Positions 1 through 45,982 of a stretch of DNA of 64,000 bases are shown piece after piece. The stretch's first letter is position 1, and every line of letters starts with the position of its first letter. The stretch is taken from positions 19,123,971 to 19,187,970 of the forward strand of contig OZ025257.1 in assembly GCA_964019135.1 (NCBI GenBank), read 5' to 3'. The notes beneath the pieces are model-generated. The model did no database searches and was not told the origin of the DNA. It saw only the letters and a list, made by a program, of their open reading frames with translations. Origin of the DNA: Arenicola marina (lineage: Eukaryota; Annelida; Polychaeta; Arenicolidae). A program made the translations under genes and the position numbers.

Positions 1-1186
1 ACGTGGCAGTCACGTGGTCCGGACGCGACCACGGCCTTGACATTGAGGCGGAGGCGTGGCGCGTGTACAGGGTGGCGTTTGCGATAATCGCGGTGACGGG
101 TTTTGTGCTCAACTCCCTAAGCATCGCCACCCTCTTGAGAGGTGAGCTTCGTCGCTCCAGCACATCCGTCTACTTAGTCACCCTGGCCGTGGCCGATTGC
201 TGCGTTCTCTTGCGGCAGTTCGGGGACCAACTGGTCTGGTGGCTGGATGGTGACGTGCTGAAAGGGATGCCGAAATGGTCGGACGTGCTGTGCCGCCTGG
301 AGCGAGTCTTCACCTTCTTCCCGCTCACCTGGGCCGCCTGGATGGTGGTTAGTGTGACTGCCGAGAGGTGTCTCTGCACGCTGCTGCCCTTCCAGGCCGC
401 CAAGCTGTGTCGGCCGACGGTGGCGCGCGCCGTGGTGCTCACCATCACCGTAGCGCTGCTGGCCCTCTGGGTGGGCATCGCCTTCGGCACTGACGTCACC
501 ATGGGGCCGTGTGACCTGGGGCCCTTCAATGCCTTCTTGATCCACCGCGGCGGCTACTGGATGCTGAACGTCATCTACAGCTACGTGCCCACCGCGGCCC
601 TGATCGCCATGAACGCCGCCATCATTGGACAGCTGGTGAGGACGCGAGCCAACAGGATGGCTATGACGTCATCAGATGACGGCCTCACCATCCAGGTCAC
701 GAAGACAGTGCTGACCGTGTCCTTGACCTATTCAGTGTTGACCTTCCCCACGACAACCGTCATGGTCTCCATATGGTGAGATTCTGTCTCTTATTCGCTA
801 GCCTAACAAGATGGTGATCATTACACATATTTATATGACGAAAATAAAAACAAATTGATAATTTGGTTGAATGAATTGAGTAATTGTCATCCGCGTCACG
901 TTTCGATAACCCATTCCAACCGCCCCTGTTTGTTTTCAGGACGGCATCTGTCCCCAACCAGAATCCAGTCGTCATGACAATTGTCGATCGAATCTTCTAC
1001 TTGATGGTTTTCTCTAACCACGCCGTCAACTTTCTCATCTATATCCTCAAGTCGACCAAGTTTAAAGCCGAATTTAAAGCAATGATGACGTCATTCTGTC
1101 CACGGAAGCCCAAAGAAGTGGACAGTGTGCTACCCCAGAGCGATAACACTAGGTCTACTGCGGCGTCGTCCGAGCAAGCCGAATAG
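1..1186 (+). CDS. Rhodopsin-like (class A) GPCR, copy 1, 5' end cut by window
   Basis: Two exons, 1-775 and 940-1186, joined by a 164-bp GT-AG intron (donor after ATATG, acceptor TTTTCAG) that falls after TM6; the split codon becomes Trp and the frame continues. The first codon in frame is the GTG at 3, but this is not a start: copy 2 shows about 38 more N-terminal residues, which lie before the window. Seen: seven hydrophobic segments, Asn in TM1 (VLNSLS), LAVAD in TM2, AERC in place of E/DRY after TM3, and NFLIY in place of NPxxY in TM7. The C-terminal tail is short and Ser/Thr-rich. It is nearly identical to copy 2; visible coding differences include Val versus Gly in TM2 and Cys versus Ser in the tail (SFCPRK/SFSPRK). 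The ligand is not known; it looks like a lineage-expanded peptide- or FMRFamide-receptor-like orphan. Confidence 0.85.
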
Positions 1187-1837
1187 CGTGGTATATAACC
1201 CTCATACCTGGCAACAATGGTTCGTCGTCCACTGATTAGGCCGTATGACGGAAATGCAATGGATGCAGGAAGCAGGGGCTCTTCGAGGAAAATCTTGGAC
1301 TATAAATTTCAATGTATAATCTGATACAAATAGGTCACCAATTGGATTAGGCGTAAATTCTGCCAATTTACTTGCATCCATAGATTCTGCAGTTGATGGA
1401 GAGAACCTTTTCAAGTATTGCCCTGAACTGATCGATATAATATTGTTGACCCGCCCCAGATTATATTTCCCGATCATTATGTTAAATATTAAATACCTTT
1501 CGGTGTCATTGAAGCAGTGTGCGTCTTTAATAACTAAAGGAGAGGAACTACTGTGTAACCGTCCTTAGCAAACATTCCAGCTTCAATATTTGATTGATCA
1601 GTGAGCACCCTCATTTTCTGCTTCTTCATCTGTACAGTATCTTGTTGTCGCGATATTGTATTCTGTATCTTGTCTATATGCTGTCTCCATCGCGTTTTCT
1701 TTTTCTTTCTTTTTCTTCCTAGATTTATGTACTTTTGGAAAACATGAAAAATACAATGTAAAGAGAGCGCGGGCCCTCGTTTAAGAGCTGACTGGATGTT
1801 CGTAGTCGCGGTGGCTTCTTAGACGTGCAAGCAGACT
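1187..1837. other. 3' flank of GPCR copy 1, no gene seen
   Basis: This stretch is non-coding and is repeated almost exactly downstream of copy 2 (9425-10070). The small minus-strand reading frame here is also duplicated but shows no family signature, so I do not call it. Confidence 0.6.
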
Positions 1838-3606
1838 AATCGTGTACTACATTATAACTCCCCTGGTTTTAGCAGTAAGACTAATCGTGTATCTCACTCT
1901 CCCATGGTTTTAGCGGTAAGACTAATCATGTAGCTCACTCTCCCATGGTTTAATAGTCGGGCTAACCGTGTATCCCTCTCTCCCATGGTTTTGTATTAAG
2001 GCTAATCGTGTATCTCACTCTCCCATGGTTTTAGCAGCAAGACTATTCGTGTATCCCTCTCTCCCATGGTCTTTGTATTAAGGCTAATTGTGTATCTTAC
2101 TCTCCCATGGTTTTAGTAGTAAGGCTAATCGTGTATCTCACTCTCCTATGGTTTTAGTAGTAAGGTTAATCGTGTATCTCACTCTCCCATGGTTTTAGTA
2201 GTAAGGCTAATCGTGTATCTCACTCTCCCATGGTTTTAGTAGTAAGGCTAATCCTGCATCTCACTCTCCCATGGTTTTAGTAGTAAGGCTAATCGTGTAT
2301 CTCACTCTCCCATCGTTTTAGCAGCAAGACTAATCGTGTATCCCTCTCTCCCATGGTTTTTGTATTAAGGCTAATCGTGTATCTCACTCTCCCATGGTTT
2401 TAGTAGTAAGGCTAATCGTGTATCTCACTCTCCCATGGTTTTAGCAGCAAGACTAATCGTGTGTCCCTCTCTCCCATGGTTTTTGTATTAAGGCTAATCG
2501 TGTATCTCACTCTCCCATGGCTTTAGTAGTAAAGCTAATCGTGTATCTCACTCCCCCATGGTTTTAGTAGTAAGGCTAATCGTGTATCTCACTCTCCCAT
2601 GGTTTTAGTAGTAAGGCTAATCATGTATCTCACTCTCCCGTGGTATAAGTAGTAAGGCTAATCGTGTATATCACTCTCTCATGATTTTAGTAGTAAGGCT
2701 AATCGTGTATCTCACTCTCCTATGGTTTTAGCAGCAAGACTAATCGTGTATCCCTCTCTCCCATGGTTTTTGTATTAAGGCTAATCGTGTATCTTACTCT
2801 CCCATGGTTTTAGTAGTAAGGCTAATCGTGTATCGCACTCTCCCATGGTTTTAGTAGTATGGCTAATCGTGTATCTCACTCTCCCATGGTTATAGCGGTA
2901 AGGCTAATCGTGTATCTCACTATGCCATGGTTTTAGTAGTAAGGCTAATCGTGTATCCCACTCTCCCATGGTTTTAGTAGTTAGGCTAATCGTGTATCTC
3001 ATTCTCCCATGGTTTTAGTAGTATGGCTAATCGTGTATCTCACTCTGCCATGGTTTAGTAGTACGGCAAATCGTGTATCTCACTCTCCCATGGTTTTAGC
3101 AGCAAGACTAATCGTGTATCCCACTCTCCCATGGTTTTAGTAGTAAGGCTAATCGTGTATCTCACTCTCTCATGGTTTTAGTAGTAAGGTTAATCGTGTA
3201 TCTCACTCTCCCATGGTTTTAGGAGTAAGGCTAATCGTGTATCTCACTCTCCCATGGTTTTAGTAGTAAGGCTAATCGTGTATCCCACTCTCCCATCGTT
3301 TTAGCAGCAAGACTTATCGTGTATCCCACTCTCCCATGGTTTTAGTAGTAAGGCTAATCGTGTATCTCACTCTCTCATGGTTTTAGTAGTAAGGCTAATC
3401 GTGTATCTCACTCTCTCATGGTTTTAGTAGTAAGGTTAATCGTGTATCTCACTCTCCCATGGTTTTAGTAGTACGGCAAATCGTGTATCTCACTCTCCCA
3501 TGGTTTTAGCAGCAAGACTAATCGTGTATCCCACTCTCCCATGGTTTTAGTAGTAAGGCTAATCGTGTATCTCACTCTCCCATGGTTTTAGCAGTAAGGC
3601 TATTAG
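1838..3606. repeat. 41-bp minisatellite array 1
   Basis: There are about 43 tandem units of roughly 41 bp with the cores TAAGGCTAATCGTGTATCTC and ACTCTCCCATGGTTTTAG. Variant units (ending GTATTAAGG, or starting AGCAGCAAGAC) alternate in higher-order runs. Each unit holds a CCATGG palindrome. The array ends with a short inverted piece (CTATTAGTCTCACGATTAGT). Homologous arrays sit at 10071-11476 and, inverted, at 27118-27430. Confidence 0.95.
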
Positions 3607-4003
3607 TCTCACGATTAGTCTCACTACTAAGATCATGGGACGTAGTAGAGTCGTTCGCAGTGGTAACGTTATGAGGCTTGATTGAGATGGAGAGGGCGTA
3701 TACAAGTTTGCGCCCCCGTTAACCGTCACCCGCCGTTTCAGATTCATGGCGATACTGCACCACCGCTATATTATGTTAAATGATGTCGTCGTTTGTATTT
3801 AAGTTGAATGAATACTACTGTGTACTTCAGATACGTGTTTTTGGAATATATGCATTACTCGCTTGAACAACATTGTTGAAGATAAAGGAGATGTATATAA
3901 TGTCGAATGTGGTAAATAAGGTGGAATTGATATTATCGATGTAGACAACATGTATGTTTTTCTTCATTGCATCTAATGTTATCTTCAGTATGACGATCTG
4001 GAT

Positions 4004-4211
4004 CAGGGGCGGATCGAGGGGGGATGGGGGGTTTGGGGGATGTTAAGGACTGTGATAGTCGAAAAATTTCCCACCCTCGCCTGTTGTAAAAAAACTATGG
4101 TGGACACCCGCGGTCATTTAATCCCCCCACCCACCCCCGCTCAGTCTCAAGCTTTTTTTATAGAGCCCCCCGGTCGCAATCCCCCTTTCCAAAATCCTAG
4201 ATCCGCCCCTG
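4004..4211. mobile_element. hAT-like MITE, copy in A1
   Basis: A short non-coding element bounded by inverted CAGGGGCGGATC / GATCCGCCCCTG termini, with G- and C-runs inside. Ends of this form are common in hAT-derived MITEs. The expected 8-bp target duplication is not clean here. The same element sits at the same place in A2 and in the inverted copy, so it was inserted before the block was duplicated. Confidence 0.7.
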
Positions 4212-5950
4212 TAGATCTATGTCACTAGTTGCAAACCAAACGGATCAAAATACAATAAATACGTAGACACACAAATCAACAAATTTGGCGTTGTTTTCAG
4301 TGACAAATGTGATTAATTTGCAACAAAATGTCACCTCTACAAATGACACCCTTATCCGACCATTCAGATCGCCGCAACACACGGACAGACGACTGCATAC
4401 CCTCTGGTTTTTGGATGAAATATACACTCACTCATTATTAGGATTCTCATGATTCTCAGGATTTTTCTGTTAAAAATCCTATTCTCAATAGGTACTCGCA
4501 TTATTGCTTAATCCCCAACTGCTATATATGTTTTGATTAAAATATGATACCCAACAATTTACTTCATATCTGGCGTTTGCATCGGCATTTTCATACTATA
4601 AGAGTTGATAGTCACTTGAAATTTATTTCTATTAAATCAAGCAATTGAATAACATAGCTACCGTCATTAAATACGCAACATTGTAGGAGTGGCTCGAGTG
4701 ACATCGACCAACAGGTCTTAACTAGAAGCGCCCGACCGATTAAATGAATCAGTTGCTTCTTGTCTTCTTTATGGCACTTATCTCTTCATTGTATACACTT
4801 AAGTAGATTAATATGGACTTGACTATTGTGACTTGCCCAAAAAATGCCATGCCCGTTGGACGATACTCAACACTAACGATTGGCGTTAACTCATTAGAAA
4901 CCATGTAATATGTCTTTCAAAGAAAATACTCTTGGGGCTGCAATGTGATATAAAAGTAAAACTTGAATGTTGGTATGCAATCTATTGTTTCTTGTTTAAA
5001 AGGAAACCATCATCGAGAAAATCGCACATCAACAGTATGAAAGACTGATTTTCGCCCATCAGGCTGGGCCTGTGAATGACGTCACGAATTGGGGATTCCC
5101 CTGTGAATGACGTAACGAGTTAGGAATTCCCATTTCACTGACACCCGCCGATGTTTGTCGATGTTTAGCGAGATCGTTTCTAAATCGCCGAAGCTTATTA
5201 TACGATGCTCTATTCATTTTACCTATGTCACCACTTCTTTTGCTGTGTTTTATTCGTGTTTGTCCATTAAGACTGCGTAAAATCTCAGGGCTACAGCCCG
5301 CCGATGTTTGCCGATGTTTATCGAGGTCTGCACAAAATCGCCGAGGCTTATTATGGGTAGCTTACCTTAAACAATTGTTGGTTCTGTGCGAGGGGGAGTC
5401 CATCGTAACCGTAAGCAAGTAATGTTCCCTCTGAAGACGAGTCTCCTTGCCATGTGGACGTAGGGCTGAAGACCGGGCTGTGTTTATTGGCGTCTTGGCA
5501 TTTCAGATAAAAGACTCTGGCATAATGATAATCAGGGACTCTTTCTCGGGATGATATCCTGATCAACAGACGGATCGATAGCAAGGTATCCAGCTGAGCC
5601 ACTCGGCTTTGACTCTTTATGATGAAAAAGAAGTTTCACGATAAAGAGTCAAAGGCTGAAGCGTGTAATTACAACATCTGTAAGTGACATCACAGACAGC
5701 GGGCGCTCACCTCCAGCGAATCCGGTTTTGGGTCATGACATTTCACCGCCACATATACAAAGCTTGGGGAGCTCTTTGGATTCGATTCAAAAATAGTATA
5801 GTATGAGTATGAGTATTCGTTGGCCGACTTTCAACTGGACATCATCCATGGTTCATCCATGGGAGTGTCAGATGTTGATGACAGACCAGCCCATCTTCTG
5901 TTTTCTCTACCCCTTACCCAATCTTCTAGGAAACTCAACCCACTAATTTT
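4212..5950. other. Non-coding spacer, no gene seen
   Basis: No convincing coding signal. It contains local duplications of the phrase CCTGTGAATGACGT(C/A)ACGA and of CGCCGATGTTTG..GATGTTTA. Part of it (5440-5800) recurs inverted at 22260-22600. Confidence 0.5.
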
Positions 5951-5955
5951 TGGTT

Positions 5956-6390
5956 TCACGTCTTGAGAAGAAGGATGTGCAGTTGGAGTCTTGAGTACTT
6001 CTCTCCCCTATTGTCATATAGGTCAAAGAACCCCAAAACGTCACGATCCATGTCGGGGGGAGCATAGAGTCTCTTAGGTGCATGATTATCCACAGATGAA
6101 ACCAACAATCTATGTTCCCTAGTTTCAATGTCACTCTTTATTTCGGTCTTGTCATTTTTTGTCAATAAATGAGTACTGAGTTTTTCCAATACTGATTCAA
6201 TTTTGTCTAATCTGTCACCCATATATCTAACTGTTGCACCCATGTCGCTAACTGTTGCTGCCAATTCAGAAACATATTTGGGTTTTTCGATTTCGACCTT
6301 TGCATCGTCAAATACAGTTGATCCTTTATCAACAAAGGCTTGCCACATTGTTGGAGGGATTTGATTGATTTTTACTAATTGATTTAGCAA
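5956..6390 (-). CDS. Hypothetical protein with coiled-coil segment
   Basis: I do not recognise a family. The reading frame gives 144 residues from an ATG at 6390 to a stop at 5956. Residues about 45-80 have heptad-like spacing (AATVSDMGATVRYMGDRLDK, then IESVLEKLSTHLL), suggesting a coiled coil; the C-terminal third is polar. It lies in the spacer between GPCR copies 1 and 2, and I find no counterpart after copy 2 or in the inverted copy. It could be a small single-exon gene, one exon of a larger gene, or a gag-like remnant. I see no splice partner, TATA box or poly(A) signal that settles this. Confidence 0.35.
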   Translation of the reverse strand: MLNQLVKINQIPPTMWQAFVDKGSTVFDDAKVEIEKPKYVSELAATVSDMGATVRYMGDRLDKIESVLEKLSTHLLTKNDKTEIKSDIETREHRLLVSSVDNHAPKRLYAPPDMDRDVLGFFDLYDNRGEKYSRLQLHILLLKT

Positions 6391-8106
6391 AATTGTAGAT
6401 TATAAAACACATAAAGTTGTATTTAAACCAAAAAAATTACGACCGAAAGTTTCGACAAGTGTTATAGCTCGTTAACAGAAAATATGATGAATTTAACAGT
6501 CTATTTGTTTGAATTTGGCTTTGGCGGGAAAATCGATCTGAGACAAGGAAAATCACCGATCAGCGTACAACTGTTAATTCCTTTCTCAAGAAATTAATAA
6601 TCTAAACCTTTTACTTCTGACACCATTATTGTGGGTCGTACCTCAGGGGAGCTTCGCTCTAGCCGAGGGTGAAAGCCCTTTTGGTCGTCTGGATAGCAAA
6701 TGGCTGAGATGTCTCGGCACGTCTGTCTTCTTCGGTAGTTCGTCTTCGTCTGACCGTTGTTGTAGGTCTTTTTCAGGTGGCGCCACGCTTGAATGGTTTT
6801 CATTGGTTACAATAATGCACTCGCTGGGAGCCAGCTGGTCACGCACGTATGCTTGTGACAATGTGAGCAGTTCTAGGCCGGCTTCCAGCCAGAATAAGCG
6901 TATATTCAGTGTTATTCGCCAGGTGGCGGGTCACCGTTTCACAATAATACCAACCAGTCGTTTCACCGAATAATTTTACTCGATGCTTTTTCATTTTGCA
7001 AAGGTATCGATGAGTGGCCAATACAATTAGGGACGATTCAGTAACATGTACATTAGCCACAATTATTAACACTTTCTTCCGCGTACTATATCGTGCGCAG
7101 AATCTTAAGCCAGAATGTTTTCACAGTAATTGAATTACTAATAGACCTTTCACAACCATCTGCACGACGTTGGAGAGAAAAAAACGTCTCGGCTATAAAA
7201 CGACAGCGGTTCGAATGACCAACGACAGTTGCATTTCTTCCTTGTCGGCGTGGCTTTGAGCCAAGATGTGTCAGAAGCAGCCATCTTAAACGGCACTATA
7301 TAGTAACACCTACCCCACGGGAAGGATAATCGCTTCATCCTTCAACAACAATATGCCTAGTGCTGCCAATTAGCTAATCAGCAAAATTGCAAACGTTGAC
7401 ACGCAAAAATTCCTATCGGTGTCATATCTTTCATCTTGGTTGTTATTGATTAACATTGCATTATGTGGATATGGCTTTGGGCTATTTTAGGTTATTTCGT
7501 AACATTATTTGTGATGTGGTGTTCTGTTACAGGCCAGCAGTTTTATTCAGGGAGTGCTGGTGTAGCTGGTGTGTAACTGACAAAATGTGCATTGTTAGCG
7601 TCGTGTTTGAAACTTACGTAAGCAATCTAGACGAGTCATTAGCCATTAGTCCCGGTTGTCTCTCATCTATCCACATGATAAAGAAACTCGTTTGTCGCCA
7701 GTGACTTCAGACGACAAAATGGCCGCCATTTTTGTTCCATGATGGAATTACGAAAAACTGGTAAACAAAGGTGCTGTGGACAATGAATGTCGCCCAACGT
7801 GTATGTACTATAAACCTAAAGTGGCCAGGAGCCTCAGATTCCTGTCTCCCTTCCTAAGTCTAGATGGTGTTGACATTGCCCTGTGGTAATCTGATCGCTT
7901 TTTCTTAACAAACCCCCTTTAATCATGGAGCACTTTTTAATGCTTTAGATTTGTATTTAAGCCTGGGCGTCCGTTCACGGGCCCATAACCACGTGGCACA
8001 GGCACCCATGCAGGGTAATATTAATTATCTTGCTTGTATTGCCGCATTTGCGTTCGCACTGAACACATATTCAATTGAGAAGTGGATCTTCGCTGAATAA
8101 GAAGAC
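6391..8106. other. 5' flank of GPCR copy 2
   Basis: No gene called. About 6960-7720 recurs in inverted orientation, split between 40950-41570 and 29280-29420; 7925-8020 recurs inverted at about 28985-29070. This is therefore part of the duplicated unit and probably carries the promoter of the receptor gene. I see no well-placed TATA box. Confidence 0.5.
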
Positions 8107-9424
8107 ATGGGTACTTCTGTGATGTGGCACGCTGCAACCGAACTGGAGTCGCACAGCCTGACAACCGGCGATTTCAGTCTGAGCTCGACGCCGGTATCTG
8201 CTTCCGGTACGTCAGAACACGTGGCAGTTACGTGGTCCGGACGCGACCACGGCCTTGACATTGAGGCGGAGGCGTGGCGCGTGTACAGGGTGGCGTTTGC
8301 GATAATCGCGGTGACGGGTTTTGTGCTCAACTCCCTAAGCATCGCCACCCTCTTGAGAGGTGAGCTTCGTCGCTCCAGCACATCCGTCTACTTAGTCACC
8401 CTGGCCGGGGCCGATTGCTGCGTTCTCTTGCGGCAGTTCGGGGACCAACTGGTCTGGTGGCTGGATGGTGACGTGCTGAAAGGGATGCCGAAATGGTCGG
8501 ACGTACTGTGCCGCCTGGAGCGAGTCTTCACCTTCTTCCCGCTCACCTGGGCCGCCTGGATGGTGGTTAGTGTGACTGCCGAGAGGTGTCTCTGCACGCT
8601 GCTGCCCTTCCAGGCCGCCAAGCTGTGTCGGCCGACGGTGGCGCGCGCCGTGGTGCTCACCATCACCGTAGCGCTGCTGGCCCTCTGGGTGGGCATCGCC
8701 TTCGGCACTGACGTCACCATGGGGCCGTGTGACCTGGGGCCCTTCAATGCCTTCTTGATCCACCGCGGCGGCTACTGGATGCTGAACGTCATCTACAGCT
8801 ACGTGCCCACCGCGGCCCTGATCGCCATGAACGCCGCCATCATTGGACAGCTGGTGAGGACGCGAGCCAACAGGATGGCTATGACGTCATCAGATGACGG
8901 CCTCACCATCCAGGTCACGAAGACAGTGCTGACCGTGTCCTTGACCTATTCAGTGTTGACCTTCCCCACGACAACCGTCATGGTCTCCATATGGTGAGAT
9001 TCTGTCTCTTATTCGCTAGCCTAACAAGATGGTGATCATTACACATATTTATATGACGAAAATAAAAACAAATTGATAATTTGGTTGAATGAATTGAGTA
9101 ATTGTCATCCTTTATTGCACGTTTTTGTCAGCGTCACGTTTCGATAACCCATTCCAACCGTCCCTGTTTGTTTTCAGGACGGCATCTGTTCCCAACCAGA
9201 ATCCAGTCGTCATGACAATTGTCGATCGAATCTTCTACTTGATGGTTTTCTCTAACCACGCCGTCAACTTCCTCATCTACATCCTCAAGTCGACCAAGTT
9301 TAAAGCCGAATTTAAAGCAATGATGACATCATTCTCTCCACGGAAGCCCAAAGAAGTGGACAGTGTGCTACCCCAGAGCGATAACACTAGGTCTACTGCG
9401 GCGTCGTCCGAGCAAGCCGAATAG
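8107..9424 (+). CDS. Rhodopsin-like (class A) GPCR, copy 2, complete
   Basis: Exons 8107-8993 and 9178-9424 with a 184-bp GT-AG intron give 377 residues. The ATG at 8107 starts a 55-residue N-terminus before TM1 and is shared with the inverted pseudogene copy, which supports it. Seen: Asn75 in TM1, Asp103 in TM2 (LAGAD, where copy 1 and the paralogue at 43 kb have LAVAD), Cys135 before TM3 and Cys208 in the second outer loop for the usual disulphide, Glu159-Arg160-Cys161 in place of DRY, Pro234 in TM5, no CWxP in TM6, and NFLIY (326-330) in TM7. The intron position matches the paralogue at 43 kb. The product should be a plasma-membrane receptor signalling through G proteins. The ligand is unknown; the family could be a peptide-receptor offshoot. 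Confidence 0.88.
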
Positions 9425-10070
9425 CGTGGTATATAACCCTCATACCTGGCAACAATGGTTCGTCGTCCACTGATTAGGCCGTATGACGGAAATGCAATGG
9501 ATGCAGGAAGCAGGGGCTCTTCGAGGAAAATCTTGGACTATAAATTTCAATGTATAATCTGATACAAATAGGTCATCAATTGGATTAGGCGTAAATTCTG
9601 CCAATTTACTTGCATCCATAGATTCTGCAGTTGATGGAGAGAACCTTTTCAAGTATTGCCCTGAACTGATCGATATAATATTGTTGACCCGCCCCAGATT
9701 ATATTTCCCGATCATTATGTTAAATATTAAATACCTTTCGGTGTCATTGAAGCAGTGTGCGTCTTTAATAACTAAAGGAGAGGAACTACTGTGTAACCGT
9801 CCTTAGCAAACATTCCAGCTTCAATATTTGATTGATCAGTGAGCACCCTCATTTTCTGCTTCTTCATCTGTACAGTATCTTGTTGTCGCGATATTGTATT
9901 CTGTATCTTGTCTATATGCTGTCTCCATCGCGTTTTCTTTTTCTTTCTTTTTCTTCCTAGATTTATATACTTTTGGAAAACATGAAAAATACAATGTAAA
10001 GAGAGCGCGGGCCCTCGTTTAAGAGCTGACTGGATGTTCGTAGTCGCGGTGGCTTCTTAGACGTGCAAGC

Positions 10071-25848: not shown

Positions 25849-26325
25849 TTAGGGATGGTGGGAAGGGGTGGAAGGAGGAGAGGTGCTTGAAGTGTCATGT
25901 GCATCCTGCGCAGCAGGGGGTGGAGGCAGGGGATGGTGATGGGAAAATAAGGTTGAAACAGCTTCAGGCTTCAGCCTCAGCTTTATAGGTTCGTTTGGTC
26001 CTCTGCCTAGGTACTTAGCTTGCAGATCTTCTTCAAGGCAATTTTTCTCAAAGTAGCCGGAACATACTCTTGAATGTTTGGCGGGTTTAAAACTCACACG
26101 AGTAATCTTGTGTAGCCATTCCCGCAAAAGCTGCTGGTCGCCTAGTGGATCGCGGTAAAAGGATGTCCTCTGTTTGCCGTCCTTATTAGCACTTGAATTG
26201 TAACGAAACAACAGCTGAACAGTACACCATTTTGTTCTAAATGCATTGATGTTTGAAACTCGCTTGTCACTATTCATGAGAGGTGTTAGGCCGAGAATAT
26301 GTTCCGAAGACGCAGTTTCGTCCAT
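25849..26325 (-). pseudogene. THAP-domain protein remnant
   Basis: The frame gives 158 residues. Residues about 50-120 match the THAP zinc-finger layout: TSFYRDP, then a Trp (REWLHKI), FKPAKHSRVCSGYFEKNC, and a C-terminal LRLKPEAVSTLF that mirrors the family's AVPxLF box. THAP domains bind DNA through a C2CH zinc site and occur in cellular factors and in P-element, Kolobok and ISL2EU-type transposases. Here the second Cys of the first pair is missing (WCTVQLLF) and the C-x2-H pair reads C-x2-Y, so zinc binding is probably lost. The tail is His/Pro/Ser-rich low complexity. It sits directly beside the inverted copy A3. It is most likely a decayed transposon or gene fragment. Confidence 0.6.
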
Positions 26326-27850: not shown

Positions 27851-28886
27851 CTATTCGACTTGTTCGGAGGTCTTCGACGCCACAGTGGACCCACTGTTAT
27901 CGCTCTGGGGTAGCACACTGTCCACTTCTTTGGGCTTCCGTGGACAGAATGACGTCATCATTGCTTTAAATTCGGCTTTAAACTTGGTCGACTTGAGGAT
28001 GTACATGAAAAAGTTGACGGCGTGGTTAGAGAAAACCATCAAGTAGAAGATTCGATCGACAATTGTCATGACGACTGGATTCTGGTTGGGAACAGATGCC
28101 GTCCTGAAAATAATCAGGAGCGGTTGGAAGTGGGTCATTGAAATATGATGCTTTTCAAAAGCACAATAAAGGATGATAATTACTCAATTCATTAAACCAA
28201 ATTTAAAATAAAATTGCAAACATTTCGTCATTTTCAACATATAAATATATGTAATGACCACCATCTTGTTAAGCAAGCAACTACGAGACAGAATATCACA
28301 GTATGGAGACCAGTACGGTTGTCGTGGGGAAGGTCAACCCTAAGTAGGTCAAGGACACGGTCAGCACTGTCTTCGTGACGTGGATGGTGAGGCCGTCATC
28401 TGATGACGTCATAGCCATCCTATTGGCCCGCGTCCTCACCAGCTGTCCAATGATGGCGGCGTTCATGGCGACCAGGGCCGCGGTGGGCACGTAGCTGTAG
28501 ATGACGTTCAGCATCCAGTAGCCGCCGCAGTGGATCAAGAAGGCATTGAAGGGCCCCAGGTCACACGGCCCCATGGGGACGTCAGTGCCGAAGGCGATGC
28601 CCACCCAGAGGGCCAGCAGCGCTATGGTGATGGTGAGCACCACGGCGCGCGCCACCGTCCGCCGACACAGCTTGGCGGCCTGGAAGGGCAGCAGCGTGCA
28701 GAGACACCTCTCGGCAGTCACACTAACCACCATCCAGGCGGCCCAGGTGAGCGGGAAGAAGGTGAAGACTCGCTCCAGGCGGCACAGCACGTCCGACCAC
28801 TTCGGCATCCCCTTCAGCACGTCACCATCCAGCCACCAGACCAGTTGTTCCCCAGTGGCAGCGTGCTACATCACAGAAGTACCCAT
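27851..28886 (-). pseudogene. GPCR copy 3, pseudogene with internal deletion
   Basis: Exon 1 is 28886-28300 and exon 2 is 28103-27851 on the minus strand; GT donor and AG acceptor are kept. Relative to copy 2, exon 1 is exactly 300 bp shorter. The missing part covers most of the N-terminus, TM1 and TM2, and the reading frame is preserved across the junction (AACTGGTCTGG side). The seventh codon, TGG in copy 2, is TAG here (28868-28866). From TM3 onward all motifs are present (AERC, Pro in TM5, NFFMY in TM7) and the frame is open to the stop at 27851. The split codon is Leu rather than Trp. Without TM1-2 it cannot be a normal seven-helix receptor, so I call it a pseudogene. A truncated protein from a downstream ATG (28820) is possible but unlikely to work. 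Confidence 0.85.
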
Positions 28887-34070: not shown

Positions 34071-34086
34071 TTTCAGGCTAGCCCTA

Positions 34087-34392
34087 GCTCTGACATCAAA
34101 ACCGCCACCAAGGTGAAGGTTTTGAATAGCACAACACTTTTTGATGTAGAAAACAAGCATGGCAGCGTGCGCAAACTGAACTCCTAAATGGCTGATATTT
34201 CAGATATTTTTGCCGGCTTTCGACTTCAGTAAAGGCGCCGGGAGTAAGAATACAGTTTGTAGATTGCAAAAATGCCAATATTGAAAAAAATTGTTGACAC
34301 ATTTAGCGCCGGGAGCTTTCGAAGGAACTCTACACAGAACAGTGTTGTGCTGTTCAAAACCTTCACCTTGGTGGTGGTTTTGATGTCAGAGC
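34087..34392. mobile_element. 306-bp TA-flanked MITE
   Basis: The ends GCTCTGACATCAAAACC / GGTTTTGATGTCAGAGC are inverted copies over about 50 bp (continuing CACCAAGGTGAAGGTTTTGA). TA dinucleotides at 34085-34086 and 34393-34394 fit a Tc1/mariner-type target duplication. No coding capacity. Confidence 0.8.
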
Positions 34393-34442
34393 TAGGCTAG
34401 CCCTAGCCTGCCACGAGCGCTTAACTTCTTCTTTCATTATTA

Positions 34443-34545
34443 GTCCCCACGAGGTCATCTGCACTAAGCCCCACCTCTCATAATCTATAACTTATATAGA
34501 CCATGAGACTTGAGGTGAGGCTTGTGCAGATGACCGCGTGGGGAC
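34443..34545. mobile_element. 103-bp TA-flanked hairpin MITE
   Basis: GTCCCCACGAGGTCATCTGC at the left is mirrored by GCAGATGACCGCGTGGGGAC at the right. It is almost wholly self-complementary apart from a short central AT loop. TA lies on both sides. Confidence 0.8.
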
Positions 34546-34810
34546 TATAATAAAGAAACGAAGAAATTAAGCGCTCGTGAACAAGACTATCAAAGTATCA
34601 TTTCATCAACAAGTTTCAATGTATGGGTGATTCTATAATTGCGGTGCATTTGGAGAAAGAACGAATAATGAAAATGAAGTTTCCAAAACATTTTTTTTTT
34701 ATTTATTCAACGTAGCAATCTATCTCAACGTGAACAGAACCATGGGCCGGGCTGATTTAGCAAATTCTGAGAAATTGTGTAGATTTATGCTGCGTGTCAT
34801 TATACTTTTT

Positions 34811-35201
34811 GTCCCCTCCGTTACCGACAAAATTGCTGTAGACGACATACTTTCAACGTTGTATTATTCATTAAAACTCATCTTGCTAATACCTCAAGTG
34901 TCCTTATGATAGATAAAGCAAGACATTTGCCTCTGGTTGTGTAAGTTATGACAGATTAATTAAGTATATGTGGTGAGTTGTCTAAAACCTTGATATTGAG
35001 ATGCTTTTACACTGTGCGTCTCGCAAGTATAGTCCCCTAAAAGTTTATTTCATTATTAAATACAATCTACTAGGCGCAATACATCAATGGTATCAAAATC
35101 TATTGTATGGGTATATTTGTTTCTTATGTACGGAAAATTAAAGGCTAGGTAACGGAGGGGACTCATGGCAACGGGGGGGACGCCATGGTAACGGAGGGGA
35201 C
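34811..35201. promoter_or_regulatory. Subterminal 15-bp motifs, left end of transposon
   Basis: Copies of GGTAACGGAGGGGAC: reverse orientation at 34811-34825; forward at 35148-35162, 35167-35181 (GGCAACGGGGGGGAC) and 35187-35201. They lie between the TIR and the end of the gene. The likely role, by analogy with other DNA transposons, is transposase binding. Confidence 0.75.
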
Positions 35202-35332
35202 AACACGTACACGTACTGGTGTATCATACATCACATTCAATAAATGAGCGACTTTTCTAAATGCAGTGTTCACTTGCCTTAACAGGAATTAGGGCAAGCA
35301 CAAATTGCACAACGTAATTTAACATGGCCTGT

Positions 35333-38300
35333 TTAAGTTCTCTTTTTGAGAATATCGTGCCAGATGGAGGGCTTAACTTGGAGGTGCCTATCTGTCACCT
35401 TTTCTGGTGGGGCAATTATCTGAATGATATCGTCTTTCGTGTACCAACATATGTCGTCACGGTCGGGCCAAAAAAATCGGTTCAAACCAACTTGGTGCAT
35501 GCATTTAACCTGCACATCCTCGTCGTCCACGTTGATCACAATACCCGGGTATGGTGCACAGTCATACCGCACCGCTACATACATGCCAAGAAGGTCATTG
35601 GTATGTGAGGTAGACGGTTCTGGGCCTTCAACGGCCAACATAGGTACGAAGTGATTTGGAACGAAATGGTCGTCATTTCATGAAACCTTGTTGATGTCCA
35701 CATTAAGTGGAACGTTTCTGCACACTCCAGCTGCCTAGGAAAGAGTAGCCGATGCATATCACTTCGGACATTTGGATTTCCTCTCTTGGGGTAGGCCGTG
35801 AAGAGTTTGGCTTTTAATACGCTGGACATGGCAAATATCTCCCATATGCCCATGTAACTGCCATTCTTAGTAAGTTCCAAGACTTCGGCCTGATATAGAA
35901 GAGATATGTCCTTCTCGGTGATCTTGCCTGTCGATTCGTACATCCCAGAGAACATGCAAAATTTGCGTGTCAGGGCTTTGGCCTCTCGATCAGTAACATC
36001 AGCCCCCTGCCTCAGGTGATCTGTGTCGAGATAGAGCTTCTCGTGGACCGCAAGTTCGATCACAATGCGCGCACTGAGTTCTGCCTCACAGTTAGCATGC
36101 CCGAAGGCAAATACACTCCCAGTATGGGGCAAGCAATTGCCATCAGCTGCCACTTTGACTGGTGTCATATGTGGAAATGGGAGATCATCTGGTGCATTCA
36201 TTTGCGCATCTTCATCAATTTCCATCTCCGGAGACAACCTGACACAGCGCCCTGTGATGGCATATCTCTGATCAACTTCTTCCTCCAGCTCGATGCGCTT
36301 GCTCTTCAGCTCAGCATAGATGTTGAATGTCCCAAACTCCTCTAGTATAGCTTCAAAATATAGTTTTCTGTCAGGTGATTCCTGGTTATTGATAACTGTT
36401 GACTGGTTATTAGCCTTTCCTCCTTTGGGATATTTCACGGCAAAAGAAAACGATTTCGGGGAATAACATGAGCAGATTTCCCCTCGTTTACAGAGACAGC
36501 TGACATCTCTATATGTGAAATCGCCACAGCCTTTAGTGATGAGCTGGTGCATCTTCATTGTGCCAGGCACAGTTGGCAAAGTAATTTCAGCAAAAGATTT
36601 CTTTAAAGTGTTCGATCTCTTCTGAATCAACAAGATAAAGCTTGATTTTGCACTCCGAGTTCAACAAATTGTACAGGGCAGTAGCACTTGGACAGTCACT
36701 GCCTCTTTGCACTCTGTAGTCTGCCAATCGCTTCACCGTCGCCCCAACTCCATCGGGCGCTCCTTTACCATGTCCGGCTTCCATGAAATTCCAAGAGGCT
36801 GTAAATGTAATACACAATAGGCTAAAATAGTACAATAATATAACTTTTCTCAATATTACGTATACCTTTACTAGGATGACGGAAAAACTTTGTGCGTCAC
36901 ATTTCAATGAAAGAATTATGAAACTGCTGACTAGGATGAAGTGAATTTTAGCGGATGCAAAACTTCCGAACTGAGAATGGAATGAGTGAGAGCTGGTCAC
37001 ACTAAAGATTTTGCCACAAATATACAAAGGGTACCTCTTTACAGAAAGAAATTTCCCATGTCACACACTTTAAAACGATATTTTGATTTATGAAAGTAAA
37101 TATTATGTGTACTATTCAGAAGATATGAAACTAGTTACTCACAATTAAATCGATATGATTTATGATACTGATCTACGGATGTTTATGACTTACCAAACTT
37201 AATGCCACGAAGAGCTAGCTTCCATGTGAAAAGGAAGAAGTTGTGTTTCTGCTTGTACTGGGTGCATGGGCCATCGCTGAAAAAGTGAATTGTGTCTATA
37301 TCGGGGTAAGACTGCTGCATGTCGTCGAGCATTGGTTCCAAATGTGCCCAAATCCCAAATGGACTGTGCTCCAGATTGTCTGACATGGAACAAAACGAGG
37401 TGGCCTTGCCATTCGATCCTACGTAGTAAACGCCTGTATGCAGACTGACTTGCTTCTTTGAAGCACCAAAATGCATGCTTTGGATCTCTGTCGCATATTT
37501 GCAAGCATAGTTTTCTGCAAAGTCAACATGGATCAAACATTCATTGTTCCCCATATTCTGTATCTGTTGACGATAGAAGAGAAACTGGTGTCTTATGTTG
37601 TAGTAGTGTCGCTTAAACCTTTGCAGATAATCAATGCTTTGATCTATCAGATCTCCAACAGTGCCCTTAACCTCCTGTTTGATGGTCATGCTGATGGCCT
37701 TGGGTACTTCTTTTATAGTACGCATCTCCTTCACTGTTTTCCATTGAGTCTAGGAGGTTGAGTTATTCTTGTCAATTGTCTGGAAGTCTGGTGTTTTTCC
37801 CTTGCATGCGAGGCAATCTCCATACATGCAATCTTTTGAATTGACATCACAAGCAAGTCCTGAAACTACTTCATCCAAGTTTTTAGAGTCCAGTATTTTC
37901 AGAGATGTAAGCTTTGATACCAGCAGCTGGCAATTTTCATGCAGCTTGCATAAGCAGGTTTGCCTGTCTGTGGCTGTAGGAGGAAGTACCCAAAATGGCC
38001 GGAGACGGCAAAACAAAGAATAGCTGAGTTTCAAATTTCCATTTTCGCTTAGAAATTTCAGGTGAATGTTCTTCATGCTATCTGTCAAAAGCCGCCGTTG
38101 GCGTTTTTCTTTGTTCCTGGTGATAGTTTCCTTCTTTCCAGTGGTGATGCGACTGTTGTCATCCCTCGTATAAAAGGCGTGTATTCGTTGCATCATACGA
38201 GTACCAAGAGATGCAGCCTTGCATTTCTGATAGGTTATACCGCCTTCCTCCTCATTAGATCCCATATTGAACTTCCCTGGCCAGCGTTTCGAAGAGAAGC

Positions 38301-38949
38301 CCAACTGCTCCTGCATGTAACGTTGTAGCTTGTACTTTTTGACGGTAGTTCCCGCCACTAGTCTGGCGTACAATGATTTCTGTCTCTCACGTTTACTGAC
38401 TGCATATTTCCTTCTTATTTGATCCACCAGAACGTTGTGGAACAACAATGTCTTTCTGACTTCTGACGTGCTTGCATACCGCAAGAGGCGTCTTGTCTTT
38501 GAACGTGGTGTATTTGACTTTCCATCATTGTTCAGTCTCTGCCACCTCTTTTTGAATTTCTCCTTTTCACGCACTTGGTCCTTCAATCTCCTTTTCAAAT
38601 CTTCAATTTCTTTCACCATCTTCCTTCTATGCCTTTTTCTCGCTCTTTCATTCATTACTCCTGCATGGCTGGGAGGCGGAGATATGTTGCTGTCTGGAGA
38701 ACAAGGCGGCGTCATTAATGCATTTAATTGTTTTTCTTTTTTACGGTTATTGGCTCTACGAATCTTCCAAGCTCTTCGGGCAAGTCGCAATTCCCGTTCA
38801 GTCATGGCATCAGCGAGTTTGACCTTTCCACTTTCCTTTCTCTTTCTCCATCTTGCTTTTTCTTTTCGCAAATATTCAGCTCGTTTTTCTTTATCCAAGT
38901 TTATTTTGTCGCGGTAGCGTCGCTGCTTTTCTGCAGCTGTGAGAGGCAT
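35333..38949 (-). pseudogene. Transposon protein: coiled coil, DDE-like core, OTU/vertnin-like domain (broken)
   Basis: Exon 1 is 38949-37194 and exon 2 is 36798-35333, joined by a GT-AG intron (TTTG|GTAAGT; TTTACAG|CC) that keeps the frame. Order: a basic N-terminus (AAEKQRRYRDK) with a coiled coil near residues 105-142; a Cys-rich patch (CLCKLHENC, CMYGDCLAC); then IHVDFAENY (Asp at 37524), FFSDGPCTQYKQ (Asp at 37275) and FMEAGHGKGAPDG (Glu at 36781), a likely DDE triad. In exon 2 follow a Cys cluster (CLCKRGEICSC), an OTU-type VAADGNCLPH (Cys at 36135) and NHFVPM with a candidate His. Breaks: an in-frame TAG at 37750-37752, a one-base slip near 36592-36595 (T-run on the coding strand), and another near 35671-35687. 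OTU domains are deubiquitinase-type cysteine proteases; the role in a transposon is unknown. A domesticated host gene is an alternative, but the flanking TIRs argue for a mobile element. Confidence 0.8.
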
Positions 38950-39253
38950 TTTACGTCTGCAAAAAAAAAAAAAAAAAAATTGCTAATTGATGGAACAATT
39001 CCCCCATATCGATTAACGGTGTCATGAATGCAACCTCAGAAGCATAAAATGCTAAATTTAATTGGTGAAAGCGTTATATATTCGATAGTTTACTACAGAT
39101 ACCGTGTTATCTGCCAGAATTAAATCTCTTCAGACAACATCAACAATTGTCCCATCCCGCCATCCATTGCCACTTTCCAAGTAGAGGTTAAGGTCATGGA
39201 AACCGGTATTCGCTCACCTAAAACGTTGCTAAAGGACACAGTTACACCCAGAT

Positions 39254-39675
39254 GTCCACTCCGTTACCGCTTTCTGTCCCCTCTGTTACCAGAATTTGGG
39301 TAACGGAGGGGACGGTAACAGAGTGGACAAAATTGCCATAGGATATGGTGCAGGATAACATCTTTTCATATTACTAAGTCAGTCACCAAATATGTTTGTA
39401 TTGCTTCTGTTTTCAATAGCAAAACATCGCCCAATTTAGTCTACTGCAGTTTTTTCCTTGAATAATAATGGTAACGGTGGGGACATTTAAGAATGTTCAC
39501 CCCTGACACTCACCTGATAAATCTGTTCAATGAGTCGAACCAGAAGAGCACGTTGGAAATCTTCCCGCCAAAACTGCGCGTGGGAACTTGCGTTGCCATG
39601 CAACAGTACAGATAGCAGATCGAGGGAGCGTTTATTTTTACATGCGCTTAAATATGCCACGGTAACGGAGGGGAC
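39254..39675. promoter_or_regulatory. Subterminal 15-bp motifs, right end of transposon
   Basis: Six copies related to GGTAACGGAGGGGAC: reverse at 39254-39268 and 39276-39290; forward at 39299-39313, 39314-39328, 39470-39484 and 39661-39675. Two (39254, 39314) share the variant with A or T inside the G-run (GTCCACTCCGTTACC, GGTAACAGAGTGGAC). They lie upstream of the gene, so they could also act on its promoter. Confidence 0.75.
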
Positions 39676-40502
39676 ACGATTGAAAAGACACCGACTTAAA
39701 AACCCTTATCTTATTCAGAAAGTATTATTTTGTACCTGGAAATTCTACATTGTCAACTCCAAATGACCCACATGACACCACATGCATAAGAAATTCAGAA
39801 ATATTGCAGCGGACGCAGTGGTCACAAAAACTTTCAATTATGGTCATTCCAGGGACAGTCAAGTTTTGTCATGTACCTTGTATTGAAATTGTTCTGTAAA
39901 CGAAATTATTCTAAATACATCTCTTTGCTTCAGATATTCAATACAAAGACTAATTGATGTATCTTATCACGAAATAAGTAAATATTTGAGACCGATATTC
40001 AGCCATGAACTTTGACCTTGACAGTCAGGACACAGAATGCACCGTAATTATAGAATGACCCGTATAAAGGCTCCTATTCGCCTTTTGTTATGGTGTCACG
40101 CTCGAATTTGGGCGTCTTCAGGTTCTATACAGTATAGTATTAATAAATACATACCTTTCATTCATATAAATAAGCAAATATTCGTGAATATAAGCTAATC
40201 GTATAGACATGCCGTAGGACTCCGCTCGCCTTTCCGCAACATTTTTCAAACTTCGCGCATGCGCCTTGCGATCTCCGCTGCGCATCTTCGCTAGGCGGCA
40301 GCTGCCGTCTGGTGGCGCACTACTCACTTCGCGGGGTTGGGCCCCGTTGCAAATCTCACTAATGTTTTAGGGCGGGGGTGTGTGTGTGTGTGTAGGGAGG
40401 GGGGGGGGGGTTACGTTGGCCACATTATTTTGGATCGAGAACGCTAGGCCTATAGCATATAATGATAATCTAATTAGAACTAAAATACAATGATACACGG
40501 CC

Positions 40503-42725: not shown

Positions 42726-43041
42726 TGATGGCACTCTGGAATACCAATCTCTTAACGAGTCTGTGTGTTGTGTTCTTCCATTCCATCTCATTCGTCTAAT
42801 CGCGGATTAATCAGCATGTGCTCAAGATGAAAGAAGATGTGTATGGCTGCTTTTTCGCTGTAGCAATGGTCAAAATAATGATTCTGACAGACGCACAGAA
42901 CATGGGTCTTATAAAACCGGCTGGATGTGTATGCCGCCGAGTCATTACAGCGGCAGAAGTCATGATGGAAAGCCACACGATAAAGGCACGACCTAATCAG
43001 ATAGCGTAGTTTCCTCTCACGAAGAATTCCTCCCAGTAAGT

Positions 43042-45982
43042 ATGGCGTCCTCCGATTCGCTTCCTCTTGGCGCTGATGCACAATTTATGGGCGTCACTAC
43101 AGCATGGACATTACAAACGCTAATAGAAGATACTTCTACGGAACGAATCCTTGCGGCGGCGGCACCACCACCACCGAATGATGACGTCACCAAGCTGGCG
43201 GTTGAGGTCATATTTCCGGTCCTGGCGGTGGTCGGGCTGGTGACCAACGCGTTGACCGTGGCCGTGATGTCTCGGGATCCCTTCCGGCGCAACAGCACAT
43301 CCATCTACCTGTTGACCTTAGCCGTAGCCGACTCAACGGTCCTGCTGAAGCAGAGCGCGCAGGTCATAGCCTGGGCCTTCAAGACCAATCTCCAGAAATT
43401 TTCCTACCGAAACGGGATCGCATTCTTCTGCGGGTTAGAGCGGTTCTTCTCCAACTTCCCGTTGCATTGGGCTGCCTGGATCGTGGTGTGCGTCACCGCC
43501 GAACGCTGCGTCTGCGTTCTCACCCCGCTTCGGGCCACGCGCTACTGCACCCCCAAGGTGGCTCGCCTGGTGGTTGCCATGACAACCGCACTCCTGGCCC
43601 TCCTCTGGCTCATTGTGGTCGTCATAGCATTGGGGGAATGCCGACCAAGCGCGTGGTTCCACATGATGTACGTCGACGGAGGGATCTGGGTGTTCAACGT
43701 CCTGTACTCATACCTCCCGACCCCAGCCCTGCTGGTCATGAACGCCGCCATTATCGTCAAACTGATCAAAGCCAAGGCGATGAGGTCAAACATGGCGCCA
43801 GCCCAAGCCACCGCAGCCGATGACGTCATCACCGCCAAGGCGACGGTTACCGTGCTAACGGTGTCCTTGTTCTACTTGGCCTTGACCTTGCCAAGTACAA
43901 CCATGATCGGCATATACAGGTAATGTTTGTTTGCCGTCTGATATCAGGTCTGATATCAGGTCTGATATCAGGTTTGTAGCGTAAATTAAAAAGCTCAAAG
44001 CATTTTTGGTATAAATAGACAGGAAAATAGATATCGTGTTATTCGTGTTATGTCTATTTAGGCTACCTTTGCCAAAAGTTATATTGTTGAGCTGTATCAC
44101 TGCATTAAAGAGTTTACCATACCATTGATGTAAAAGTGCCTTGATAATGGATATGATTGCCTGCATGTTACTGACCCCATTCGTTCTTGTAATTGTCATT
44201 CTTGATTTTTTTCGTTCTCTTGTGTTTCTATCAGTAGTCTTTGCATCATTATATATTTAGTCGTGGGCTCTCCAGAAAGTAGAAGGGAGTGGTTAATGGG
44301 ATGGCTTATAATACAAAGGGGTAAAGAAGCATTCCACTGTTTGTCGTTAAAGTTACTATTTCAATAAATTTGGCCGGGGAGGGTTCGTCAGACCGGAGAG
44401 AGGCGCCTTCGCTGTTGGAACAGCCGTAAACACTATATAGCGCTTTTTTCTTTCTCTTGTGTTTCTATCAGTAGTCTTTGCATCATTATATATTTAGTCG
44501 TGGGCTCTCCAGAAAGTAGAAGGGAGTGGTTAATGGGATGGCTTATAATACAAAGGGGTAAAGAAGCATTCCACTGTTTGTCGTTAAAGTTACTATTTCA
44601 ATAAATTTGGCCGGGGAGGGTTCGTCAGACCGGAGGGAGGCGCCTTCGCTGTTGGAACAGCCGTAAACACTATATAGCGCTTTCCCGCAAGGAGTCTTCA
44701 CAGTCGGTGAATATACGGCAAGTGAGAAATAGGTGCGCCCTCTGTTGGAAGAATGTATTCCTGCGGGTTACGTCAGTGTGCTGACGTCACCACACAAATA
44801 TGTGCCTTCCCTGTTTAATTTGTGATGACATTAATAGTGTAGCGTGCCGAGGGTGTAAGTGGTCAAATCCCGCCGCTGCCACCAAAACTGTAGCGTGCCG
44901 AGGGTGTTTCTGGTGTTATTGAAAGGGGGCATTTTAAGCCGCGATATTACTGGGCATTCTCAATTGTCTCAATTAAACCTAGCTTAAGTTACCCAGCAAT
45001 AAGGTACTAAGAAAGTAGTTATAATTCAAGCGATTTATTCCGGGTTAGCTCAAGCAGTCGCTGCCACCACATACAACACATCAAACTATCAATATGACTG
45101 GAATATATACATGGCATCAGCCTCTCCGCAAATATACTGATAACCATATTACAAAGAACCACCAATATATCAAACTCAAATATCACTGCACATGCTGCAT
45201 AACTTCTCGTAGCCTAATTGCTGGTCAATCAATCAATCTTTCACATTGTTTGTCTCATCCCCCAAGTTAATTTTCTATATTCCACTACCGATGTTATACC
45301 CCCATCGCAGGGACGCTAACTCTAGTGACGCTACCCCCAAACTCCACCAATGAGCGTGATGAAAGAAACTGTATTTCTACACGTAAGAAATAGGGCCAGA
45401 ATAATCATCATCATCCGTCAAACTACCGGACAATCTTGCTACACAACTTGCATACAAAGATACATAAACTATTCATAAGGATACTTACTATAACATGGCT
45501 GATCTCCAAATTCTCGAACTTTCTTAATCGTCTCCTTTCGTTCTCTCATGGCGACAGTTTACTACCAAATCTCTCCCATGCGCCCCCTGCCGAGTTACCG
45601 TTCTACTTCTCTTTACCAATGCGCTGGTTCCCCTTGTCCAACACCGCTACAATAGTAACTTTGATTGCGTTATATCCTCGATGTGGTCCACAGGACGGCC
45701 TCAACGTTCAACGGCACCCTGGGGGTAATAACAGCCCAGGAACGACTGTCCACCCTTCTGGTCTACACCAACCACGCCCTCAACTTCTTCATCTACAGCT
45801 GGAGGTCACACGCCTTCCGGTCAGAGGTCAAGGCCATTCTAACATGCCGCTGTAAGAGGAAACATCTACAGGGATCGGGATCACGTGATTTGGAAAGCGG
45901 GGACAAGTCGATTCCGTCCTCGTCCGTGACGGCTTCTAGCACAACGACTGAGATCGGCCGGCAGGCCAATACATGTATTTAA
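43042..45982 (+). CDS. Rhodopsin-like (class A) GPCR, diverged paralogue
   Basis: Exons 43042-43919 and 45694-45982 with a GT-AG intron (AG|GTAATG; CCACAG|G) give 388 residues. The intron is in the same codon position as in copies 1-3 but is 1.77 kb long. Seen: Asn69 (TM1, VTNALT), Asp97 (LAVAD), Cys130 and Cys200 for the loop disulphide, Glu154-Arg155-Cys156 in place of DRY, Pro226/228 in TM5, and NFFIY (323-327) in TM7. The N-terminus holds a Pro/Ala run and the tail ends in a Ser/Thr-rich stretch. It shares the TAERC, PNAAII-like TM5 (MNAAII) and RRNSTSIYLLTLAVAD style with the other copies but differs through most of its length and shares no flank with them, so it is an older duplicate. 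An AATAAA lies at about 46016, 35 bp past the stop. Ligand unknown. Confidence 0.9.
43937..43973. repeat. GTCTGATATCAG triplicate
   Basis: Three copies of a 12-bp palindromic unit just inside the intron of the paralogous GPCR, near the donor site. Confidence 0.85.
44215..44688. repeat. 237-bp tandem duplication in GPCR intron
   Basis: Two adjacent, almost identical units starting CTCTTGTGTTTCTATCAG and ending AACACTATATAGCGCTTT. Clean junctions suggest a recent event. Confidence 0.92.
44839..44887 (+). pseudogene. tRNA-Leu-like retro-fragment ending in CCA
   Basis: GTAGCGTGCCGAGGGTGTAA resembles the acceptor stem and D-arm of a tRNA-Leu with the middle deleted. It is followed by a T-arm-like GTGGTCAAATCCCGCC and by an acceptor half CGCTGCCACCA that pairs with the 5' end. 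Terminal CCA is added to tRNAs after transcription in animals, so its presence suggests a reverse-transcribed tRNA. A second 5' fragment (TGTAGCGTGCCGAGGGTG) follows at 44889. Confidence 0.55.

Follow-up and report, generated by a model that had tools for sequence, protein, structure and literature searches.

We describe a DNA transposon whose protein joins an RNase H-like transposase core to an OTU-like cysteine protease domain. The element occupies positions 34625-40061 of a 64,000-nucleotide stretch of the polychaete Arenicola marina (assembly GCA_964019135.1, contig OZ025257.1, positions 19,123,971 to 19,187,970), referred to here as the window, and has the layout of a cut-and-paste DNA transposon. 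It is best explained as a degenerate member of a recently active family of cut-and-paste transposons that encode a D-D-D (DDD) catalytic core and an OTU domain, a reading to which we assign a probability of roughly 0.9 in full; that it is a transposon with a fused OTU domain we regard as close to certain.

Ends and repeats of the element

The element is bounded by 26-bp terminal inverted repeats (TIRs) that are identical to each other at 24 of 26 positions and have GGGT as their terminal bases, and it is flanked directly on both sides by GTAT, a 4-bp target site duplication (TSD). Both features had been proposed in a preliminary description of this DNA, and both are borne out by the sequence and its flanks. 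With up to three mismatches allowed, the window contains TIR sites only at the two element ends, and 100 shuffles yielded none. Between the ends and the gene there are ten copies, in both directions, of a 16-bp repeat, GGTAACGGAGGGGACA (up to three mismatches); outside the element there is a single weak match at 51940, with 0.26 expected in the window by chance. We infer that these subterminal repeats are candidate transposase-binding sites.

Copies in the Arenicola marina genome

The 867 Mb genome (762 contigs) contains 14 places, including the window, that match the left 301 bases of the element at 86-100% identity, and the 13 others were retrieved and compared. Both ends and a perfect 4-bp TSD are present at ten of the 14, corresponding to nine distinct insertions, and all of these TSDs conform to NTAW: GTAT in the window, TTAT at L009, ATAT at L010, L012, L013 and L015, ATAA at L011, TTAA at L016 and L017, and ATAT at a copy on C1 that measures 8.2 kb end to end. 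L016 and L017, about 146 kb apart on C18, represent one insertion within a duplicated stretch and are identical over their shared 6 kb; we note that their identical flanks could reflect either a segmental duplication or a stretch assembled twice. Six copies (L009, L011, L012, L013, L016 and L017) align to the window element over its full length in a single piece with clean ends at 98.5-99.1% identity, and L019 is 96.7% identical to it; L014, L020 and L021 each lack one recognizable end. A genome-wide search with the TIR pattern (up to two mismatches) found 25 sites and its reversed control none, so that the presence of further copies carrying these termini, which the preliminary description had set as a check, is confirmed. 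No swarm of short non-autonomous copies is evident among these genome places. Searches of the viral_contigs and genome_contigs sets gave 600 and 140 pattern matches respectively, none confirmed by tblastn, and no match to the TIR pattern in either. The family is young, recently active, and present in low copy number in a large animal genome.

A one-intron gene, open in sister copies

The gene lies on the minus strand, with its ATG at 38949 and its stop codon ending at 35333. Four of the 14 places, L011, L012, L016 and L017, which represent three distinct insertions, maintain an uninterrupted frame of 1074 amino acids with a single predicted GT-AG intron of 395 nucleotides, and at the other ten the frame has decayed. 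The single spliced gene of the preliminary description is predicted in the sister copies, and it is no longer intact in the window.

The predicted protein has the order of parts described previously, namely a basic N-terminus, a Cys patch, the D motifs, a second Cys cluster and the DGNC and NHFVP boxes, although the third acidic residue of the core is D rather than E. To examine these parts we used a set of 117 homologous proteins, giving 118 rows together with the window, most of them unnamed. The catalytic residues correspond to D476 (DFAENY), D559 (SDGPCTQY) and D601 (HGKGxPDG, which reads HGKGAPDG in the window). At D601 every one of the 109 homologues covering the column has D, with a gap in the other eight of 117, whereas the nearby E592 is variable (98 of 111 rows, window included, have E, 11 have G and two have another residue); for this reason we take the third acid to be D601 and not E592. 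The triad is complete in 103 of the 104 homologues having all three columns, and structure models made for the homologues P0001 and P0025 place the three acids as expected in an RNase H-like core. The core described earlier as DDE-like is thus a transposase core with a DDD triad. Comparison of the core with Pfam, NCBIfam and PDB sequences gave no useful match.

Each of the six cysteines of the first patch (C332, C334, C367, C374, C379 and C382) is C in 98-100% of the rows having the column, and the C-terminal SH3-like domain (YPG...WP...WY), for which only weak PWWP/Tudor-type fold matches were obtained (E 0.2 and above), is retained also by homologues that have no OTU domain.

The OTU domain

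The second domain matches OTU both by alignment profile and by the fold of the homologue model, in agreement with the OTU/vertnin-like cysteine protease fold proposed for it. Among OTU-bearing homologues covering 140 or more OTU columns, 43 of 44 retain the catalytic Cys, the other having a gap, and all 44 retain the His; rows of lower cover are left out of these counts, and among them P0004 has Q and P0006 has Y at the His position. In 39 of the 117 homologues a single protein contains both the DDD triad and the Cys and His of the OTU domain. Eight of 14 OTU pieces match PF02338 at E≤1, with a best value of 2e-4, and a search with the OTU region of P0001 returned nine proteins. The OTU domain is probably catalytically active.

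An optional module

Under strict rules, the OTU domain is present in 45 rows (window included) and absent from 35 that have the SH3-like domain, with 38 rows, many of them fragments, undecided. Between the second Cys cluster and the YPG motif of the SH3-like domain lie 43-114 residues (median 67) where the OTU is absent (35 rows), and 312-881 residues (median 510) in those OTU-bearing rows, 22 in number, that allowed the measurement. On a quickly built tree of 73 rows the OTU trait changes at least three times, and the grouping of 31 shallow rows, out of 38 with an OTU, into a single clade is rejected (p-AU 0.0168, for a group picked after the first tree and on a quick tree); the OTU-less near-twins P0011 and P0023 were placed among OTU rows in an earlier tree. 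The domains that flank the OTU are kept in the OTU-less homologues, and the OTU therefore appears as a module that has been gained or lost more than once. Where rows are named, OTU-bearing proteins come from molluscs (e.g. Mytilus, Solemya, Patella, Dreissena and Haliotis) or from bacterial bins (P0034), and strictly OTU-less proteins from fish (P0017, P0021 and P0025) and Mya arenaria. We note that P0034 and P0071 are labelled as Candidatus Thiodiazotropha and Sedimenticola bins, and probably represent animal host DNA (that of a clam for P0034) within symbiont bins.

Nine of the 41 genome matches to the core are distant places at 28-30% identity, and seven of these were examined. Four of the seven, L023, L025, L026 and L028, also encode an OTU domain, with none detected at E≤1e-3 in L022, L024 and L027. 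L026 (C14:36689500-36699400, about 1098-9427) has core and OTU in one 1539-amino-acid frame, and is enclosed by TIRs that start with GAGT and lie 8.33 kb apart (none in five shuffles), with an ATAT TSD; it contains nine GTAACGG sites, of which eight flank the frame, four per side, and one lies within it. This motif occurs five times in L028 and zero to two times in each of the other five, L022, L023, L024, L025 and L027; L022 has six copies of CTACGGACAC grouped on both sides of its frame. A scan for termini in five distant relatives recovered those of L026 and found none in L022, L023, L024 and L025.

A further protein, P0113, is a pogo/Tc5-like transposase (DDE_1 E 2.6e-17, HTH_psq, Tc5 helix-turn-helix) with a vertnin-like OTU at its C-terminus. 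This OTU is 33-42% identical to the OTU domains of the family described here, to which the N-terminal part of P0113 has no match, and the fusion is apparently an independent capture of an OTU domain.

Interpretation and alternative explanations

The arrangement suggests how such an element might work. The basic, Cys-rich N-terminal half of the transposase would bind the TIRs and the subterminal GGTAACGG repeats, DDD chemistry of the RNase H-like core would cut the element and re-insert it at NTAW with a 4-bp stagger, and the C-terminal SH3-like domain would hold DNA or chromatin. The OTU domain could strip ubiquitin from the transposase, or from repair factors, histones or other proteins present where transposition takes place, and so spare the complex from degradation until it has acted. 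Such a role in sparing the transposase or its repair partners is proposed by analogy with the OTU/Ulp1 domains of Ginger1 and the deubiquitinases of Helitrons; that protection of the transposition complex from ubiquitin-driven loss is the main role of the OTU we offer tentatively, its chances falling somewhat short of even. The protease activity, like its role, is putative.

A different possibility is that the OTU is a pseudo-enzyme or a plain ubiquitin- or protein-binding module, as in human vertnin, an inactive OTU homologue (PMC10318531). According to PMC9741609, activity has been tested for no viral or transposon OTU domain, and the domain is dispensable in related elements; the retention of Cys and His in the 44 counted homologues, with a single Cys gap, is nonetheless unexpected of a mere binding module, and we consider this explanation unlikely. 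Similarly doubtful is a main action of the OTU on host silencing, for example through ubiquitin marks on histones or repressors, rather than on transposase turnover or repair; the preliminary description had put forward both silencing and turnover. The neighbouring SH3-like domain, being weakly PWWP/Tudor-like, could bring the OTU to chromatin, but because OTU-less proteins have this domain too it is no marker of a chromatin task specific to the OTU.

Two other readings concern the nature of the element itself. The existence of OTU-less relatives, and of a similar OTU beside the different transposase of P0113, might suggest that the OTU belongs to a gene lying alongside by chance, or to a second element nested in the first, and not to the protein of the transposon; we reject this as very improbable, in that a single open exon of the sister copies encodes both D601 and the OTU, both active sites reside in one protein in many homologues, and L026 combines core and OTU in a single frame. 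Scarcely any weight can be given to the idea of a domesticated host gene that happens to have repeats on both sides, even though some relatives are annotated as genes and several carry the label Vertnin. Against it stand the 13 other places, the identical ends and TSDs at different sites, and the decay of the frame at most of the places, and we reject this reading also.

Several observations weigh against the interpretation of the element as a copy of an active DDD-OTU transposon. The window copy itself is unable to encode the protein: its codon 400 is a TAG in place of the residue found in open copies and homologues, and the reading frame shifts near 36611 and again near 35680. The one-protein gene model is predicted from DNA. 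L019 has both ends, the left with three mismatches, and no TSD. At E≤1, Pfam calls neither a transposase model nor an OTU in the family's 1074-amino-acid protein; the OTU piece of P0001 scores 17 bits against a curated PF02338 cut-off of 23.3; the fold evidence comes from models of P0001 and P0025 and not from the window family's own protein; and Foldseek with the OTU-less model gave no match at E≤0.001. The binding role of the subterminal repeats is likewise putative. Finally, OTU-less relatives thrive, and the OTU is for that reason not essential. The transposon with a DDD core and a fused OTU domain nevertheless remains the explanation that we prefer.

Because sister copies keep an open gene, the possible use of ubiquitin removal by a transposon becomes testable, and these copies together with the OTU-less close relatives constitute a natural with/without pair for such work.

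Features of the window

Table 1. Coordinates of the element and its parts within the window.
Feature	Position	Strand	Basis or remark
Left TSD, GTAT	34621..34624	.	Sequence; eight other distinct insertions also have a perfect 4-bp TSD
Left 26-bp TIR	34625..34650	+	TIR match; genome copies start within a few bases of it
Left subterminal group, four GGTAACGGAGGGGACA repeats	34810..35202	34810 minus; 35148, 35167, 35187 plus	Repeat search
Exon 2	35333..36798	-	Limits from open copies; broken in window by two frameshifts
C-terminal SH3-like domain	35395..35596	-	Conservation; weak fold matches
OTU-like cysteine protease domain	35640..36226	-	Cys codon 36133-36135; His codon 35651-35653
Second Cys cluster, SCLC...CSC	36440..36500 (approximate)	-	Sequence, conservation
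D601 codon, third catalytic residue	36752..36754	-	Placed from exon limits
Intron, GT-AG, 395 nt	36799..37193	-	Predicted; measured in four open copies
Exon 1	37194..38949	-	In-frame TAG 37750-37752 (codon 400) in window copy
D559 codon, second catalytic residue	37273..37275	-	Homologue alignment
D476 codon, first catalytic residue	37522..37524	-	Homologue alignment
First Cys patch, putative zinc site	37804..37956	-	Cys conservation
Basic helical N-terminus, putative DNA binding	38500..38949	-	Sequence, model
Right subterminal group, six repeats	39253..39676	39253, 39275 minus; 39299, 39314, 39470, 39661 plus	Repeat search
Right 26-bp TIR	40036..40061	-	TIR match
Right TSD, GTAT	40062..40065	.	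Sequence

Just to the left of the element, segments 34083-34396 and 34412-34579 contain a pair of inverted repeats of 68 nt (91%) together with nested palindromes of 23-24 nt, and resemble small non-autonomous elements. Elsewhere in the window there are rhodopsin-type seven-transmembrane receptor frames at 8101-8997 and 42997-43923 (both plus strand, with Pfam 7tm_1 matches) and at 28296-28865 (minus strand), the last having a translation that resembles the 8101-8997 frame, and a THAP-domain frame at 25849-26325 (minus strand, E 1e-7). An Rfam scan of the window gave no matches.

Comparison with known systems

OTU-bearing transposons are not new as such, since fusions of this kind are known in Ginger1 and in Helitrons. 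As described in PMC2836005, Ginger1 has a Gypsy-type integrase with a GPY/F motif, a C-terminal OTU, 4-bp TSDs, TGTNR ends, TIRs of 40-270 bp and CCGG/CCGT targets, and its OTU/Ulp1 domains are proposed there to affect repair. The element described here shares with it the 4-bp TSDs and a cut-and-paste transposase that ends in an OTU domain towards the C-terminus, but differs in its GGGT ends, 26-bp TIRs, NTAW targets and a DDD core that has no Pfam match. Pfam detects no integrase, the integrase resemblance being one of fold only, and GPY/F was not searched for by itself. On the grounds of its ends and targets, as these are given for Ginger1 in that source, we reject membership of Ginger1. Helitrons with OTU or VTD domains are alike in being mobile elements with a deubiquitinase, suggested to shield transposition proteins from the proteasome (PMC9741609), and are unlike it in their HUH/helicase rolling-circle mechanism as opposed to TIR/TSD cut-and-paste. 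A literature search found no paper joining transposase, OTU and vertnin; papers on Ginger, Helitrons, other transposons and deubiquitinases surfaced, and among the papers listed none was seen to describe the present fusion. For the transposase-OTU fusion, which the preliminary description regarded as unusual, Ginger1 is a precedent.

The preliminary description could assign no standard superfamily. Sola is a candidate, having a DDD transposase and 4-bp TSDs (PMC10741241), and within it Sola2 is the most alike in its TSDs, with 12-21-bp TIRs, AT-rich AWWT/ATAT TSDs and an 888-amino-acid transposase (PMC3627910). With its DDD triad, 4-bp AT-rich NTAW TSDs, 26-bp TIRs and 1074 amino acids, the element fits a Sola-like description by these features alone, and we do not file it in Sola; the Sola descriptions examined, which were partial, contain no OTU. 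The modelled cores resemble those of retroviral and Gypsy integrases and of Mos1 in their RNase H-like fold and in having acids in the expected places. They differ in that D is the third acid and opens the last helix; the integrase core matches listed share about 9-12% identity.

Vertnin has in common with the family an OTU-like fold. It differs in that its OTU is inactive and its helix-turn-helix resembles that of IS3/IS911 transposases (PMC3024977), and no DDD core is reported in the portions of PMC3024977 and PMC10318531 consulted. Nine mollusc proteins (P0008, P0035, P0117, P0125, P0127, P0136, P0150, P0167 and P0171) bear the UniProt name Vertnin and two the NCBI label VRTN-like, with no named vertebrate vertnin in the homologue search or among the 70 proteins found with OTU pieces. 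A Vertnin label on proteins related to a transposon family may mislead gene-family studies. A broader scheme, improbable as a whole, is that these elements form a separate DDD lineage of animals, possibly a superfamily of its own beside Sola, with the OTU as a swappable plug-in between core and SH3-like domain that pogo/Tc5-like transposases have also captured, and with vertnin as an inactive relic of such an OTU. That vertnin arose from a transposon is a lead and not a result, and the family described here makes that lead on the source of vertnin-type OTU domains a concrete one.

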